Assembly: GCF_003470665.1 (NCBI RefSeq)
Contig: NZ_QRJZ01000005.1
Location: 56,990-120,989, forward strand
DNA from: Collinsella sp. AM17-1
GTDB taxonomy: Bacteria > Actinomycetota > Coriobacteriia > Coriobacteriales > Coriobacteriaceae
Direction: 5' to 3'
Length of the DNA: 64,000 bases
The notes beneath the pieces were generated by a model. That model did no database searches, was not told the origin of the DNA, and saw only the letters and a list, made by a program, of their open reading frames with translations. The position numbers and the translations under genes were made by a program. Of the stretch, positions 1,551 through 57,737 are shown one piece after another (the stretch's first letter is position 1; the number at the start of each line of letters is the position of its first letter).

Positions 1551-2942
1551 ATGGCATATGACGATAGGGAGACCGGGCTGACGGTTGAGGACCGCGGCTC
1601 CAAGTTGGGTCTTCCCCAAAACCAAGATGCAGAGGCCAATGTACTGGCCGCTATGCTGCTATCGCCCGAGGTGGTCGAAGAGGCCCAGGTCGAGCTGCAG
1701 CCCGATGACTTCTACCGGCCCATTCATAAGACCATCTATACCGCGATGGTCGATATGTACAACAGCCGCATTCCCATCGACTCCATCTCGCTGATCGATT
1801 ACCTGCGAAGCATCAACAAGCTTGATGCCGTGGGCGGCGAGGCCTACATTTTGGAGTTGATGGGTCAGACCCTGTCGCTCGTCAACTGGCAGCACCATGC
1901 CGCTATCGTTCGCCGCGATTCGATGCTGCGTGAGCTGATCGGCGCCACCAACGAGATCAACGCGCTGGCCTATAACGCTCCCACCGATACCAAAGAGGTC
2001 GTGGAGCTGGCCGAGAGCAAGTTGCTCAAGGTCACGGCGCGCGAGGTCAAGTCGAGCTACAAGACGCTGACCGAGTTTATGGTCGAGGCCTATAACGAGG
2101 CCGAGGAAGTGTGCCAGGCAGGCGGCCAGGCTGCGGGCGTGCCCACGGGCTTCCCGTCGCTCGACCGCATGCTCATGGGTTTTCGCGAGGGCCAGCTCAT
2201 CATCATCGGCGCCCGCCCTGCTGTGGGTAAGACGTCGTTCGCCCTGAATCTGGCGCTCAACGCTGCCGCTGCCGGTTATACCGTCGGCTTCTTCTCTCTG
2301 GAGATGTCGGGCAAGGAAATTGCCCAGCGCCTGATTTGCGCCTACGCCATGATCTCGATCAGCGACTTCCGTACGGGTCGCATTAGCCCCGAGCAGTGGG
2401 CCAATATCAACGAGGCCACGCAGACCTTGTCCAAGCTCGATATTCTGATTGACGATACGCCCGGCACCACGGTGACCGAGATCCGCGCCAAGAGCCGCCG
2501 CATGCTCCACAACAAGGAGAAGGCCATCATCATCCTGGACTACCTGCAGCTGGTGAGTCCTCCGCCTGGACGTCGCTCCGAGAGCCGTACCGTCGAGGTC
2601 TCCGAGATGTCGCGTGGTCTGAAGATCATGGCCAAGGAGCTCAAGATCCCGCTCATCGCGCTGTCGCAGCTCTCGCGTCAGGTCGAATCCCGTACCGGCA
2701 AGCGTCCGCAGCTTTCCGACCTTCGTGAATCGGGCTCCATCGAGCAAGACGCCGATATCGTTATGTTCTTGGATCGCTCCGCCGACGAGGCCGAAGCCTC
2801 GCGCGACGATCGACCCGACGAGGGCGTTACGCGTATCGTCGTGGCCAAGAACCGTTCGGGCCCGATCGGCGACGTCGACCTGATGTTCCTGCCGGCATCC
2901 ACCAAGTTCTATGAGCTTGATGGGGCACATGCCGAGGAGTAG
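1551..2942 (+). CDS. dnaB: Replicative DNA helicase DnaB
   Basis: Hexameric 5'-3' helicase of the replication fork, 463 residues. The N-terminal primase-interacting helical domain spans about residues 20-125 and begins near LPQNQDAEANVLAAMLLS. The RecA-like motor follows. Its Walker A GARPAVGKTS is near residue 220, the Walker B region IIILDYLQLV near 327, and later come the conserved DLRESGSIEQDAD and a KNRSGP motif. GAGG at 1541-1544 fits ATG 1551 best; in-frame ATGs at 1539 and 1545 are alternatives. No intein is visible. rplI-dnaB is a common bacterial order. Confidence 0.96.
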   Translation: MAYDDRETGLTVEDRGSKLGLPQNQDAEANVLAAMLLSPEVVEEAQVELQPDDFYRPIHKTIYTAMVDMYNSRIPIDSISLIDYLRSINKLDAVGGEAYILELMGQTLSLVNWQHHAAIVRRDSMLRELIGATNEINALAYNAPTDTKEVVELAESKLLKVTAREVKSSYKTLTEFMVEAYNEAEEVCQAGGQAAGVPTGFPSLDRMLMGFREGQLIIIGARPAVGKTSFALNLALNAAAAGYTVGFFSLEMSGKEIAQRLICAYAMISISDFRTGRISPEQWANINEATQTLSKLDILIDDTPGTTVTEIRAKSRRMLHNKEKAIIILDYLQLVSPPPGRRSESRTVEVSEMSRGLKIMAKELKIPLIALSQLSRQVESRTGKRPQLSDLRESGSIEQDADIVMFLDRSADEAEASRDDRPDEGVTRIVVAKNRSGPIGDVDLMFLPASTKFYELDGAHAEE

Positions 2943-2969
2943 GACAGGCGCCCGTTGCACGGGTATACT
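2941..2969 (+). promoter_or_regulatory. Candidate sigma-70-type promoter for purA
   Basis: A -10-like TATACT at 2964-2969 lies 17 nt after AGGACA (2941-2946), a weak -35 match overlapping the end of dnaB. It leaves a leader of roughly 60 nt before purA. Consensus reading only. Confidence 0.45.
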
Positions 2970-3026
2970 GGGAATGTTTTGTGCTTCTGCGTGCCGGCGT
3001 GGCGCGTAGACAGTCCATGAATGTAA

Positions 3027-4322
<1,296 letters not shown>

Positions 4323-4344
4323 TCGGGACTATTTGGTTATTGCG

Positions 4345-4386
4345 ATATACCCCTTTGCAGCCCGGACGGGCGGCCGAGGGGTATAT
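4345..4386 (+). terminator. Terminator-like hairpin after purA
   Basis: Perfect 10-bp outer stem (4345-4354 with 4377-4386) enclosing a smaller GC-rich hairpin. The T-run after it is short (TTTGC), so termination efficiency is uncertain. Confidence 0.55.
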
Positions 4387-4440
4387 TTGCTTGCAAAGGG
4401 CTCGCGTGGAGCGGGCCGTTAATCCATAGAGGAGGCACCC

Positions 4441-5745
4441 TTGAAGGCGGACACTCAAACCATCGACATCCTGTTGTTGGGCAGCGGCGGCCGTGAGCAT
4501 GCTTTGGCAGCTAAGCTCGCAGCATCACCGCGCGCCGGCAAGCTCTACATTGCGCCGGGTAACGGCGGCACCGCGAGCTGTGGCGAGAACGTTGTTCTCG
4601 ACGACTGCGATCCTGCGGCCGTGGCGGCGTTTGCGCAGAGCCATGGATGCGGACTCGTGGTAATTGGCCCCGAGGCTCCGCTCGTGGCGGGCGTGGCCGA
4701 CGCCGTGCGCGCGGCGGGTATTCCCTGCTTTGGCCCGGGTGCCGAGGGCGCCCAGATGGAGGGCTCCAAGCTGTTCTCCAAGCAGCTCATGGAGCGGGCC
4801 GGCATTCCGACGGCCGCCTACGGCTCGTTTACCGACGAGGCTTCGGCTCTTGCCTATGTGCGTGAGCAGGGCGCTCCGCTGGTCGTCAAGGCCGACGGCC
4901 TTGCCGCGGGCAAGGGCGTTATCGTGGCAACCGAGCTTGCGCAGGCCGAGGAGGCCGTGCGTGAGTGTTTTGGCGGCACCTTTGGCGATGCCGGCAGCAC
5001 CGTGGTTATCGAGGAGATGCTGACCGGCCCCGAGTGCTCGCTGCTGGCCTTTACCGACGGCAAGACCGTGCGCCCCATGGCCACCTCGCAGGACCACAAG
5101 CGCGCGCTCGAGGGCGACAAGGGCCCCAACACCGGCGGCATGGGCGTCTACAGCCCGGTGCCCATCGTGACCGACGAGGAACACGCCACCATGGTGAAGG
5201 TCATGGAGCAGACCGTGGCCGAGCTCGCTGCCGAGGGCATCGACTACCGCGGCTGCCTGTACGGCGGCTTTATGCTCACGCCTGCCGGTCCCAAGGTACT
5301 GGAGTTCAATGCCCGCTTTGGCGATCCCGAGACTCAGGTCGTGCTGCCGCGCCTTAAGAACGACCTGGTTGAGGTCATGCTCGCCTGCGCCAACTGCGAA
5401 CTCGATCAGATTGAACTCGACTGGCGCGACGAGTGGGCCGTGGCCGTTGTACTGACGAGTGCGGGCTACCCCGGCAGCTACGAGAAAGGCAAGGTCATCA
5501 CCGGTATCGCCGACGCCGAGGCCATGGAGAACGTGACCGTGTACCATGCCGGCACCGCCGTGGTGGATGGCCAGCTTGTGACCAACGGCGGCCGCGTGCT
5601 TGCCGTGACCGCGCTGGGCGATACGTTTGAGAACGCTCGCAACCTTGCCTACGAGGCTTGCGAGAAGATTGATTTTGAGGGCAAGACCCTGCGTCACGAC
5701 ATTGGCCTGCGTGCGCTGCGCGGCCGCGACGCCTGGGATGCCTAA
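4441..5745 (+). CDS. purD: Phosphoribosylamine-glycine ligase (GAR synthetase)
   Basis: Second step of de novo purine synthesis: ATP-dependent ligation of glycine to phosphoribosylamine. The 434 residues have the N-terminal [13 protein letters not shown] motif, an ATP-grasp fold with [13 protein letters not shown] near residue 145, and [11 protein letters not shown] near 290, which carries metal/ATP ligands. The start is TTG 4441, supported by a strong GAGGAGG at 4430-4436 and by the motif beginning only 12 residues in. The NUDIX gene follows within 25 nt and may be cotranscribed. Confidence 0.96.
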
Positions 5746-11054: not shown

Positions 11055-14369
<3,315 letters not shown>

Positions 14370-34700: not shown

Positions 34701-34748
34701 AAAAACCACCACAAAGGGTACAGGCACCTTTGTGGTGGTTTTTGTTTT
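34701..34748. terminator. Intrinsic terminator after the cytidylate-kinase-like gene
   Basis: Perfect 17-bp stem (34701-34717 with 34727-34743), 9-nt loop, T-run on both strands. The AAACCACCAC stem sequence recurs in the hairpin at 35034. Confidence 0.93.
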
Positions 34749-34799: not shown

Positions 34800-35015
34800 T
34801 CTCGATCTGTAACACCAAGCCAGCGAAAATGGCTCTAACTGTTACAGATTTAGATGAACCGTTCGGCCGTCAGCCCAACGTCTTGATCTGTAACACCAGG
34901 CGGCATATTTGGTCTCTAACTGTTACAGATTGAGATGCGGCGTGGGCGGCCGGCACAATATCTCGATCTGTAACAACTGCAGGGCTCAACGGACTCCAGC
35001 TGTTACAGATTGAGA
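34800..35015. repeat. Alternating inverted-repeat array 1 (6 repeats, 5 spacers)
   Basis: A 15-nt repeat TCTCGATCTGTAACA and its inverse TGTTACAGATNNAGA alternate at 34800, 34840, 34881, 34921, 34961 and 35001. The period is 40, 41, 40, 40, 40 nt and the spacers are 25, 26, 25, 25 and 25 nt. The TGTAACA core is invariant here; variation is confined to the outer positions. Spacers inside convergent repeat pairs (the first, third and fifth) differ from spacers between pairs, which contain a GGCCG-like core. It occupies most of the 461-nt gap between the kinase-like gene and nfnB. No open frame is convincing. Confidence 0.93.
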
Positions 35016-35033: not shown

Positions 35034-35077
35034 CCCAAACCACCACAAAGGTGTCTGCCCCATCGTGGTGGTTTGGG
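35034..35077. repeat. Hairpin related to the terminator at 34701
   Basis: 13-bp inverted repeat CCCAAACCACCAC (35034-35046) with 35065-35077; the adjoining AAAGGTGTCTG resembles the loop side of the 34701 terminator. Probably a decayed copy. Confidence 0.65.
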
Positions 35078-52542: not shown

Positions 52543-52597
52543 TCTCGATCTGTAACATCTAGACCCGATTTGGGCGGCTAGGTGTTACAGATCGAGA
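52543..52597. repeat. Alternating inverted-repeat array, minimal copy (2 repeats, 1 spacer)
   Basis: TCTCGATCTGTAACA at 52543-52557 and its inverse at 52583-52597, start-to-start 40 nt, spacer 25 nt. The pairing extends outward to 22 bp (52536-52604). The left flank TCTCAAACAAAA is shared with array 2 at 54412. It lies between the initiator tRNA and the AlbA-domain gene. The remaining 52605-52855 holds only a small palindrome TCCAATTGGA at 52707 and no gene. Confidence 0.92.
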
Positions 52598-52855
52598 TTT
52601 TGTTGTTGCTCTCCTTTATGAGTGAATCTTGACTCTTTTTATTATGTGAGGCGGACGGGCTATCGATAATCACGGGCCGGATGGATTGACTTGTCGATTG
52701 ATAGACTCCAATTGGAAGGAGCTGCGACGACCCTTAACGATCCTTAACTAGAAACAGTGACGTCTTAATAAACAATAGAGGGGCCGCTATGCAAGGGCCG
52801 TTCATGCGATGTCTTTGACTTACACTTCTTTATGGAGCCATGTAAGGAGGCGGCA

Positions 52856-54298
52856 ATGCAGCAACCCATCGCGACAAACGATGTGATTCTATTTTCCACT
52901 CTCAGGGAGAATCAGTACTTCGATCGAAAGAGCGCCCGCAAGGATGACAAGGAGATTGCGAAGCATATTAGTGCATTCGCCAACTCGGCGGGAGGCAAGC
53001 TCGTTATCGGTATCGAGGATAATGGTGAGGTAACGGGCTTCAAGCGTAACGGCGCGCGCGACATTGAGAAATTCGAGCGCGCTGCGCTCACGACTTGCAC
53101 GCCAACCCCTATTGTCCGCAAAGACCGAATCCCCGTGGTCAATTCTTCGGGCGAGGAGGACTTCGTTCTCGTTTTGGACATCGATGCCTCGACCAACCAC
53201 TCTGTTGCTCGCGTGAGCGACGGCGAGGTTTTCTTGCGGCAGGACGACAAGAGCGTGAGGCTCAGCCGCGAACAGGTATTTGCCCTCGAGTACGATAAGG
53301 GGCAGAGAATCTTCGAGGACGAGCTTGTTGAGGATTCCTCCCTAGATGACGTGGACCATGAAGTGCTTGATCGCTACAAAGGGATTCTTGGAACCGAAGT
53401 TTCCGACGAGCAGGTCCTTAGAAGTCGTCGTTTTATGCGTGACGGAAAGCTGACCGTTGCTGGAGCCCTGCTATTCGCGCTGGATCCGTCCGCGATGATG
53501 CCACAGGCGCGAGTCCGTGTCCTGCGCTACGACGGCGTCAAAATGGAGACGGGCGAGCGTCTCAACATCACGAAAGAACGAAGCTTCTGTGGGCCGCTGC
53601 CTAAGGTGATCCAAGACGCCTACGAACTCATCTCGAGCATGCTCCGCGAATTTCAGTTCCTGGGGCCCGACGGGAAATTCCAGACCGTGCCTGAGTATCC
53701 TGAGTTCGCCTGGTTCGAGGGCTTGGTCAACGCGGTGACACATCGCGACTACTCGTTTCGCGGCGACTACATCCGGGTCTCGATGTTCGACGACCGTTTG
53801 GAAATCATCAGTCCAGGCGCGCTTCCCAATATCGTGACGCTCGACAACATGAGGACCACTCGTTACTCGCGCAACCCACGCATCGCGCGCACGCTGGTTG
53901 AATTTGGTTGGGTTCGGGAGCTAAACGAGGGCGTCAAGCGCATTTATACCGAGATGCAAAACTCTCTGCTCAATGATCCGGTCTACACGGAACCTGATGG
54001 GGCAAGGGTTCAGCTAACGCTTGAGAACAATATCGTTGCCAGAACCGTAAGGAGAAGCGAGGCTCTCGAGGACAAGGTATCACCGGAGGTGATCGCCTCA
54101 TTGGGGGAGTATGAGCTCGCCGCCGTCAGGTTGGCCTTTGCGAACGGAAGAGTGACAGCAAGGGAGCTTGCAGCGCACATCGGGAGAAATCGCCGCACAG
54201 CAAGCCGGGTGCTTGGTAAGTTAATTGAGGAAGACGGGCTGCTCGAATGGCACGGCTCATCCCATAACGACCCAAAACAGTTCTACACGATAAGGTAA
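52856..54298 (+). CDS. AlbA/Schlafen-domain ATP-binding protein
   Basis: 480 residues. The N-terminal AlbA_2 (Schlafen AlbA-like) domain lies at about 8-125: ENQYFDRKSARKDDKEIAKH then ISAFANSAGGKLVIGIEDNG. A middle region with EGLVNAVTHRDYSFRGDYIR and DRLEIISPGALPN resembles the GHKL-type ATP-binding half of these proteins. The C-terminal winged helix (ELAAHIGRNRRTASRVLGKL) is at about 440-460. Such proteins are usually called ATP-dependent DNA helicase-like or transcriptional regulators; experimental function is unclear. Strong AAGGAGG supports ATG 52856. It is flanked on both sides by the alternating TGTAACA repeats. Confidence 0.85.
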   Translation: MQQPIATNDVILFSTLRENQYFDRKSARKDDKEIAKHISAFANSAGGKLVIGIEDNGEVTGFKRNGARDIEKFERAALTTCTPTPIVRKDRIPVVNSSGEEDFVLVLDIDASTNHSVARVSDGEVFLRQDDKSVRLSREQVFALEYDKGQRIFEDELVEDSSLDDVDHEVLDRYKGILGTEVSDEQVLRSRRFMRDGKLTVAGALLFALDPSAMMPQARVRVLRYDGVKMETGERLNITKERSFCGPLPKVIQDAYELISSMLREFQFLGPDGKFQTVPEYPEFAWFEGLVNAVTHRDYSFRGDYIRVSMFDDRLEIISPGALPNIVTLDNMRTTRYSRNPRIARTLVEFGWVRELNEGVKRIYTEMQNSLLNDPVYTEPDGARVQLTLENNIVARTVRRSEALEDKVSPEVIASLGEYELAAVRLAFANGRVTARELAAHIGRNRRTASRVLGKLIEEDGLLEWHGSSHNDPKQFYTIR

Positions 54299-54313: not shown

Positions 54314-54376
54314 TCGCACCTCTGTCGCAGTAATGTCGCACCTCTGTCGCAGTAATGTCGCACTTCTGTCGCAGTG
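54314..54376. repeat. 22-nt tandem repeat, about 2.9 copies
   Basis: Unit TCGCACCTCTGTCGCAGTAATG repeated at 54314, 54336 and 54358 (the last incomplete, one change). It starts 16 nt after the AlbA-domain stop codon. Confidence 0.9.
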
Positions 54377-54423: not shown

Positions 54424-54719
54424 TCTCAATCTGTAACGGGTAGGGGTCAAAAGCGGGCCTAGATGTTACGGATTGAGATTGTTGAGGATGGGCCGAGGGG
54501 AATGTCTTGATCTGTAACACGTGGGGCCGTTTTTGGCCGATAGATGTTACAGAACGAGATTTTTCGGCAGCCGGCCCCCGTTTATCTAATTCTGTAACAC
54601 GAGGGATGGATTTTGCCGAGTAGCTGTTACAGATTTAGATGTTCTAGCGGGCCGGGTTGGTTTGTCTCGATCTGTAACAGTAAGACCCGGTTTTGCTGAG
54701 TAACTGTTACAGATCGAGA
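54424..54719. repeat. Alternating inverted-repeat array 2 (8 repeats, 7 spacers)
   Basis: The 15-nt repeat and its inverse alternate at 54424, 54464, 54505, 54545, 54585, 54625, 54665 and 54705 (period 40, once 41). Spacers are 25 nt except one of 26. The first pair is TGTAACG/TGTTACG; all others keep TGTAACA. The pair-internal spacers have a central TTTT or AAAA run and often pair internally; the inter-pair spacers carry a GGCCGG-like core. The 563-nt gap between the AlbA-domain gene and the flavoenzyme holds this array plus the 22-nt tandem repeat, and no gene. Confidence 0.94.
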
Positions 54720-57291: not shown

Positions 57292-57341
57292 ACTTGCACG
57301 TAAGAAAGCAGATTAACGGTTAAGGCTAAGAAGTGGCAGGT

Positions 57342-57737
57342 ATGTCGGAAGCAACTAGGACTCGCACGCATGCGCCCGAGGTTAGGCAGCGCGCCGTCGA
57401 GATCCTCCAAGAGGGGGTCGGTCATCGCGCCCTCGCCGCGGAGCTTGGCATTCCCCAGGCCACGGCTCGTCAGTGGGCCCGCGCATATGCCGTGGGCGGT
57501 GCCGACGCCGTTTTCAATGCCGGTTCGCATCATCACACCTATTCGTACGACGTAAAGCTCGCTGTGGTTAAGGACCGTCTGGAAAACGGCTTGACGGTTC
57601 GCGAGGCCATGATCAAGCACAAGATTCCCAGCGAGTCTTCGGTCAAGGCTTGGTGCCGTCAGTACCGCGAGAGCGGTGAGTCCGCACTGGTCGATAAGCC
57701 GCGCGGTCGCAAGCCGCGCGTTAAAAAGACGGAATAG
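57342..57737 (+). CDS. Orphan helix-turn-helix protein related to IS transposase OrfA
   Basis: 131 residues from ATG 57342 (GTG 57333 is also possible). Two consecutive HTH units: VRQRAVEILQEGVGHRALAA then ELGIPQATARQWARAY, and LAVVKDRLENGLTVREAMIK then IPSESSVKAWCRQYR. This is the pattern of IS3/IS150-type OrfA and InsE proteins. The basic C-terminus is DKPRGRKPRVKKTE. No orfB, terminal inverted repeats or target duplication is seen, so it is probably a domesticated DNA-binding protein. It has its own promoter-like site and terminator directly before the hydrogenase operon. Confidence 0.75.
   Translation: MSEATRTRTHAPEVRQRAVEILQEGVGHRALAAELGIPQATARQWARAYAVGGADAVFNAGSHHHTYSYDVKLAVVKDRLENGLTVREAMIKHKIPSESSVKAWCRQYRESGESALVDKPRGRKPRVKKTE

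Follow-up and report, generated by a model that had tools for sequence, protein, structure and literature searches.

Arrays in the window and layout of the repeat unit

The window (the whole stretch of 64,000 nucleotides analysed here) carries at 54424-54719 eight half-sites starting at 54424 (+), 54464 (-), 54505 (+), 54545 (-), 54585 (+), 54625 (-), 54665 (+) and 54705 (-). The first-pass annotation had described eight copies of a 15-nt motif flipping in orientation from one to the next, and this was borne out when the steps between them were re-measured as 40, 41, 40, 40, 40, 40 and 40 nt. The half-sites make up four units, none of which is assigned to a strand. Unit 1 (54424-54478) consists of an arm, a 25-bp spacer with an A4 centre and an inverted arm, each arm differing from the consensus at two positions. 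Unit 2 (54505-54559) follows the preceding half-site at the 41-bp step, unit 3 occupies 54585-54639, and both arms of unit 4 (54665-54719) are perfect.

Searching the window for the 15-mer with up to three mismatches gave 17 matches, of which 16 are half-sites in arrays and the one left over, at 34913, is an overlapping, spurious hit; 0.92 matches were expected and the largest number in 100 shuffles was three. Beyond the first-noticed array, six half-sites lying between convergent genes (34800-35015) make up another array of this family, with three units, and two form a single unit with both arms perfect (52543-52597), again without strand assignment. In G001, the nearest genome compared, an array lies upstream of the flavin oxidoreductase ortholog, and the spacer of its first unit is identical to that of the single unit.

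A gene encoding SLFN/AlbA_2 and HATPase_c_4 domains (52832-54298) separates the single unit from the four-unit array, and the orthologous G001 array has no gap corresponding to this gene. The same 11-bp flank, CTCAAACAAAA, precedes both the single unit (52543) and the four-unit array (54424). Directly after the AlbA_2 gene, a 22-bp direct repeat with the core GCACYTCTGTCGCAGT occurs three times (54316-54375); these repeats are perhaps the operator sites of the AlbA_2 gene product. On the minus strand, at 52558 and 54520, the arms provide in-frame ATG codons (MLQI...), which stretch mechanical ORF calls into the arrays. The array at 34.8 kb is bordered on both sides, at 34704-34740 and 35038-35073, by a second, palindromic repeat (AACCACCAC...GTGGTGGTT round a GGGACAGGCACC-like core).

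The rules of the layout were decoded from 114 sequences, some of them overlapping, which contained 141 arrays of at least two half-sites when steps of 38-43 were allowed. The number of half-sites was even in 139 of the 141 arrays, the forward arm stood first in 140 and the reverse arm last in 140. The step within a unit equalled 40 bp in 398 of 405 cases, and the step between units (n = 266) was 40 bp in 171 cases and 41 bp in 90. Parity, arm order and the 40-bp steps therefore define the unit as an arm, a 25-bp spacer and an inverted arm. The arm consensus is TCTHRATCTGTAACA. The logo of 703 distinct half-sites begins with A/T positions, followed by R, TCT H R ATCTGTAACA, two free positions and W R G, then by G/C-rich positions and three A/T positions that correspond to the spacer centre. 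By inspection, TCTCGATCTGTAACA contains no stem longer than 3 bp, the symmetry lying between the arms and not inside one arm.

The three central positions of the inner spacers are A/T in 95-98% of cases across the family, whereas the interspacers (157 of 25 bp and 86 of 26 bp) merely have a G/C-rich centre without consensus. Hence, of the two spacer classes proposed at first, the A/T centre of the inner spacers holds family-wide and the GGCCGG core applies to the 54424-54719 locus only. Distances of 30, 30 and 20-21 bp separate the A/T tracts that lie beyond the arms and at the centre. The A/T profile calculated from the spacers alone has a 10-bp period (0.487 vs. 0.079), matched by a fraction of 0.0015 of column shuffles, this phasing having been noticed first and tested afterwards. 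A loose pattern, TGTAACA-N20..30-TGTTACA, occurred at 31 places in G001, all 31 with exactly 25 letters between the words, and a control pattern gave none. Random spacing of other genomic copies, named in the first-pass annotation as the mark of an inert repeat, was not what we found, spacing being fixed genome-wide (31/31; 398/405).

Distribution and genomic surroundings

The strict pattern was searched for in 43 genomes of the genus, of which 22 had 19-51 units, two had one unit and 19 had none. Class-wide, 22 of 396 genomes matched, one of them by a single match, and all belonged to one genus of 153. The perfect 55-bp unit compared with named genomes matched 98 stretches and, among the matches listed (80), the names were C. 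aerofaciens, Collinsella sp. and uncultured Collinsella. The RF3 gene was at least 95% identical to that of G001 in 21 array-bearing genomes and 81-84% identical in 18 others with a full match; distribution and RF3 identities thus assign the family to the C. aerofaciens group. No description of these repeats was recognised among the papers listed in literature searches, chiefly outside subscription journals. The accessible text of PMC8040213 mentions Collinsella once, concerning an L7/L12 leader, and a text search of the accessible part of PMC3733652 gave no mention of the genus.

The 18 arrays of the complete G002 chromosome comprise 90 half-sites; when at most two mismatches are allowed, arrays contain 89 of the 93 half-sites found. 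One isolated half-site comes from a unit split by an IS1249-like element; at 3659-5074 of the G002 locus L195 such an element lies within a unit spacer, with GCAGCTAGG common to both edges as judged by eye. All 18 arrays are located outside called genes, as defined by our own codon-usage caller, whose initial version had overlooked the AlbA_2 gene in the window. Measured from the origin, 16 of the 18 are no more than 0.7 Mb away (KS p 0.09). A role as terminus sites (matS-like) was rejected, with dnaA and the skew minimum at 1.75 Mb in G002 and the arrays away from the skew maximum at 0.66 Mb.

The 30 proteins scanned, nearly all of them array neighbours in the window and G001, comprise enzymes of metabolism, transporters, regulators and translation factors, and no single family recurred at most arrays. 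Seven G002 arrays lie between convergent genes, four between divergent genes and seven between co-directional genes, compared with 180, 222 and 775 for the other gaps of at least 60 bp. This corresponds to an enrichment at orientation switches with OR 3.0 (p 0.02), or OR 2.5 (p 0.08) for gaps of at least 150 bp. In the redundant set the counts were 32, 29 and 19 vs. 48, 42 and 224 (chi-square 61). We play this preference down because it is weak in the one complete genome, despite the strong signal in the redundant set.

Arrays occupy identical intergenic places in different genomes, unit counts differ by whole periods, and within one group the units lost are not the same from genome to genome. 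Upstream of RF3, an array is present in 11 of 21 genomes, and the remaining 10 have a clean empty site with a GGCCGG-like core. The 34.8-kb place is filled in 12 of 20 scored genomes, two of the 22 loci having been left out (an IS interrupts one and the other lies at a contig end). As seen by eye, the empty alleles at this place keep one of the two flanking palindromes, as recombination between them would leave. The filled and empty states at both places are independent (19 genomes, Fisher p 1.0). Such free variation at two loci implies that no single array is needed.

The palindromic core GGGACAGGCACC is found 23-36 bp from five of the 18 G002 arrays and within 300 bp of 0.9% of 5000 random places; a related word, GTGCCTGTCCCC, is present also in array-free Collinsella. 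At 2240-3715 of the G001 locus L118, by eye, an IS3-type element is inserted in a palindromic repeat adjoining an array. One IS110-family transposase gene recurs near two different G001 arrays, at distances of 0.6 and 1.6 kb (L124, 2267-3439; L121, 15538-16710). A prophage attachment site was considered for the viral contig L134, which has an array in its host flank, but it was rejected, likeness to the host locus continuing for about 75 bp past the array. An integrase-like ORF, named by eye, adjoins the array on this contig.

Divergence and pairing within the units

Among 564 orthologous unit pairs, the arms differed at 760 of 16920 positions (4.5%), the spacers at 1863 of 14100 (13.2%) and the flanks at 11863 of 86096 (13.8%); the pairs come from related sequences and hence are non-independent. 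Arm columns 1-3, 12 and 14 (numbered from 1) changed in 0-0.3% of comparisons, against 14-18% for columns 4 and 5 and 2-6% for the three columns at the spacer centre. Only pairs with no more than 10 of 25 spacer mismatches (eight in the neighbour-gene sets) were used, which lowered spacer divergence.

The loci L016-L113 were chosen for holding a perfect unit, which favours conserved arms, and loci fetched via a neighbouring gene as well as pairs of imperfect units served as controls. At two loci of the former kind, with units paired by spacer alone, arms diverged by 6.0% and spacers by 14.2% in 239 of 264 pairs. The other 25 pairs, with over 15 of 30 arm positions mismatched, had been set aside; 75% of their arm positions differ, like random DNA. 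Within the array limits of the same loci, where zero pairs were dropped (n = 166), the values were 7.8% vs. 15.4%. Taken separately, the 34.8-kb place gave 4.7% vs. 14.8% and the RF3 locus 11.2% vs. 16.1% (79 pairs, four of them with more than 15 of 30 arm mismatches). The imperfect-unit pairs from the first set (n = 399) gave 5.8% vs. 15.0%. The arms look selected in place because they diverge less than spacers and flanks, also in loci fetched through neighbouring genes. Selection on the arms in place looks the simplest account of their slow change; arm exchange between units through recombination could also keep them alike.

The spacers of 81 non-redundant units contained 308 self-complementary pairs against 384 ± 13 in shuffles, which indicates avoidance, and z-scores for self-complementarity in the interspacer columns were as low as -6.4. 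Both arms of a unit were identical in 29 of the 81 units, compared with 16.7 ± 3.0 for shuffled arms; the arms facing each other across an interspacer were not alike. We read this pattern as a probable symmetric DNA site in which longer palindromes would be selected against. The likeness of the arms within a unit could stem from the correction of quasi-palindromes at replication, or from a weak RNA role.

Shuffling of half-spacers by a recombinase with a crossover at the A/T centre was suggested by mosaic spacers. It is not claimed, because halves shared between loci exceeded the prediction from column composition only slightly (about 2.4-fold, by hand).

Rival accounts and a predicted protein-binding role

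A non-autonomous mobile element of the REPIN or BIME kind, in which the arms would be transposase-bound ends, the 55-bp unit would move or amplify and arrays would grow in tandem, is an unlikely yet possible account. BIMEs are described in the accessible text of PMC2817692 as extragenic clusters of REP sequences with regular spacing, alternating orientation and strain-variable length that bind IHF and gyrase; each REP is an imperfect palindrome, usually present in more than 100 copies per genome, and RAYT genes are often adjacent. The Collinsella arrays resemble BIMEs as so described in being extragenic (18/18 in G002), regularly spaced, alternating and variable between genomes, but their arm has no internal palindrome, G002 has about 90 half-sites and no Y1 gene lies near the arrays in G001 and G002. 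According to the accessible text of PMC3116915, REPINs are REP doublets that form hairpins, with 16-bp invariant inverted ends and a spacer of fixed length. Some of them stand in ordered tandem clusters, clustered REPINs are nearly identical, and their spacers keep pairing through compensatory changes. The Collinsella units likewise have inverted conserved ends, of 15 bp, and a fixed-length spacer (398/405); in contrast to REPINs as portrayed there, their spacers avoid pairing (308 vs. 384 ± 13) and vary from unit to unit. The initial statement that no family with this layout had been described was too strong, since BIME and REPIN clusters, as far as these texts go, are also regular, alternating and extragenic.

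Mobility would fit the two invariant inverted ends around a fixed-length spacer, the independent filling of two loci (11/21 and 12/20 scored genomes) and the difference in unit number by whole periods. Judged by eye, two of the filled RF3 alleles are bordered by short direct repeats, a hint of insertion. Y1 transposase genes (PF01797), with RAYTs and IS200 transposases pooled, were found in 22/22 array-bearing vs. 15/21 other genomes (Fisher p 0.009, ignoring relatedness). However, in G001 and G002, from which array-Y1 distances were taken, the nearest array is more than 100 kb from any Y1 match, and the CTGTAACA core is absent from about 1 kb around four G001 genes. The slow change of arms in orthologous copies that do not move is unexpected for spent copies, the arms as read from the sequence are not self-palindromic, and the spacers avoid the hairpin pairing that REPIN spacers retain. 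As array presence varies between genomes and Y1 genes are commoner in the array-bearing ones, the arrays may still have a mobile origin.

The first-pass annotation had also offered a processed RNA array, that is, units transcribed and folded into a row of hairpins that would be processed or would protect transcripts. The array folds much better than shuffles (RNA z -8.9), as is expected of any row of inverted repeats, and the arms within a unit resemble each other. In co-directional contexts, G.U exceeded A.C on the sense strand in 47 vs. 20 cells and in 12 vs. 2 ortholog groups (p 0.013), counts that rest on codon-usage gene calls and related sequences. An A-run lay on the sense strand in 51 vs. 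25 co-directional units, with no keto bias in the spacers. The corresponding G.U and A.C counts were 37 vs. 26 in convergent contexts, but the bias was absent in divergent ones (38 vs. 41), and four of the 18 G002 arrays lie between divergent genes. Standard stem pairs made up 90.3%, against 90.4% in shuffles, the covariation score was equalled by 91 of 500 shuffles, uncompensated mismatches were frequent at arm position 4 and the loops avoid pairing. In the Rfam search of four sources nothing but a tRNA reached its family threshold, and the matches over the units were far below it. With stem pairing no better than in shuffles, a tRNA as the sole Rfam family, no guide-like spacer matches and spacers inherited at orthologous places, the RNA proposal is improbable, the co-directional contexts leaving a hint of it.

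An inert tandem repeat, its regularity maintained by recombination, appears very improbable. The spacers do change at the rate of the flanks, entire units are lost and the array is absent from half of the genomes at each of two loci; against this, the arms change two to three times slower than the spacers within the same units, spacing is fixed across dispersed loci and the spacers obey composition rules.

A guide function for the arrays, as in CRISPR or TIGR systems, is hardly tenable: the spacers between repeats do alternate in two classes, but 618 of them, compared with 1.32 Mb of array-masked DNA, gave 21 matches with at least 16 identities (19 when shuffled) and 0 with at least 18 (2 when shuffled), two spacer cores were not found in IMG/VR, and the spacers are inherited and mutate in place. 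CRISPR arrays combine direct repeats, acquired spacers and adjacent cas genes, whereas the Collinsella repeats alternate around inherited spacers, and the 30 scanned proteins, nearly all array neighbours in the window and G001, contained no cas family. TIGR arrays of TIGR-Tas systems, as presented in the accessible text of PMC12045711, have two distinct repeats of 8-12 nt, 9-nt spacers and an adjacent Nop-domain gene. The likeness lies in alternating repeats and two spacer classes; the arrays studied here differ from that description in having one alternating 15-bp word, 25-bp spacers and no partner gene common to the loci examined.

A clade-specific family of phased, alternately oriented sites, with arms that change more slowly than their surroundings, is real. 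As for its function, we predict that a DNA-binding protein of the C. aerofaciens group recognises the arrays as clusters of phased, sequence-specific sites, a reading to which we assign a probability of about 0.45. It ranks as the likeliest, followed by a REPIN-like element and then by RNA. The arrays look like protein docking strips because the 15-letter word evolves more slowly than adjacent DNA; in orthologs the recognition word was more conserved than its surroundings, as would befit a protein site. Slow in-place change of the arms, rigid spacing and the 10-bp phasing of A/T tracts together argue for the phased protein-binding array suggested at the outset. The likeness of the arms within a unit and the sense-strand bias in co-directional contexts are not predicted by DNA binding alone, and the arm advantage at the RF3 locus alone is small (11.2% vs. 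16.1%).

If a protein does bind there, each 55-bp unit would be held by a pair of molecules facing each other across the A/T centre. With units 80-81 bp apart, successive pairs would sit on about the same face of the helix, and protein may then coat the intergenic array as a regular nucleoprotein strip that bends the DNA. Such a strip might organise the chromosome locally or keep adjacent transcription units apart, the most tentative step of this scheme. A more specific version is possible though doubtful, namely that the arrays are clade-specific chromosome-organising sites, about 18 dispersed per chromosome, at which a putative dimeric protein would bend or wrap intergenic DNA in strict 40-bp steps, the spacers being selected against palindromy so that the symmetric arms form no longer cruciforms.

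A stand-alone double-HTH protein, which lacks a catalytic domain and resembles IS3-type transposases in their N-terminal part, is encoded at 57333-57737 of the window and looks domesticated. It occurs in 40 of the 43 Collinsella genomes, being 91-98% identical in the array-bearing ones and 59-70% in the others, and a sequence search of the PDB gave no relative at E 0.01. As a candidate binder it was rejected, with no clear link to the arrays (22/22 array-bearing vs. 18/21 other genomes, p 0.11).

Because the number of units varies, the arrays might serve as typing markers in a common gut commensal. If mobile, they would represent a REPIN-like element with a spacer rule opposite to the known one. 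If protein-coated, they would show how one species group acquires and keeps phased binding sites throughout its genome, and their presence or absence among relatives would provide natural knock-outs for effects on expression and chromosome folding. Whether protein-bound or mobile, the arms would be a precise bait for finding the protein.
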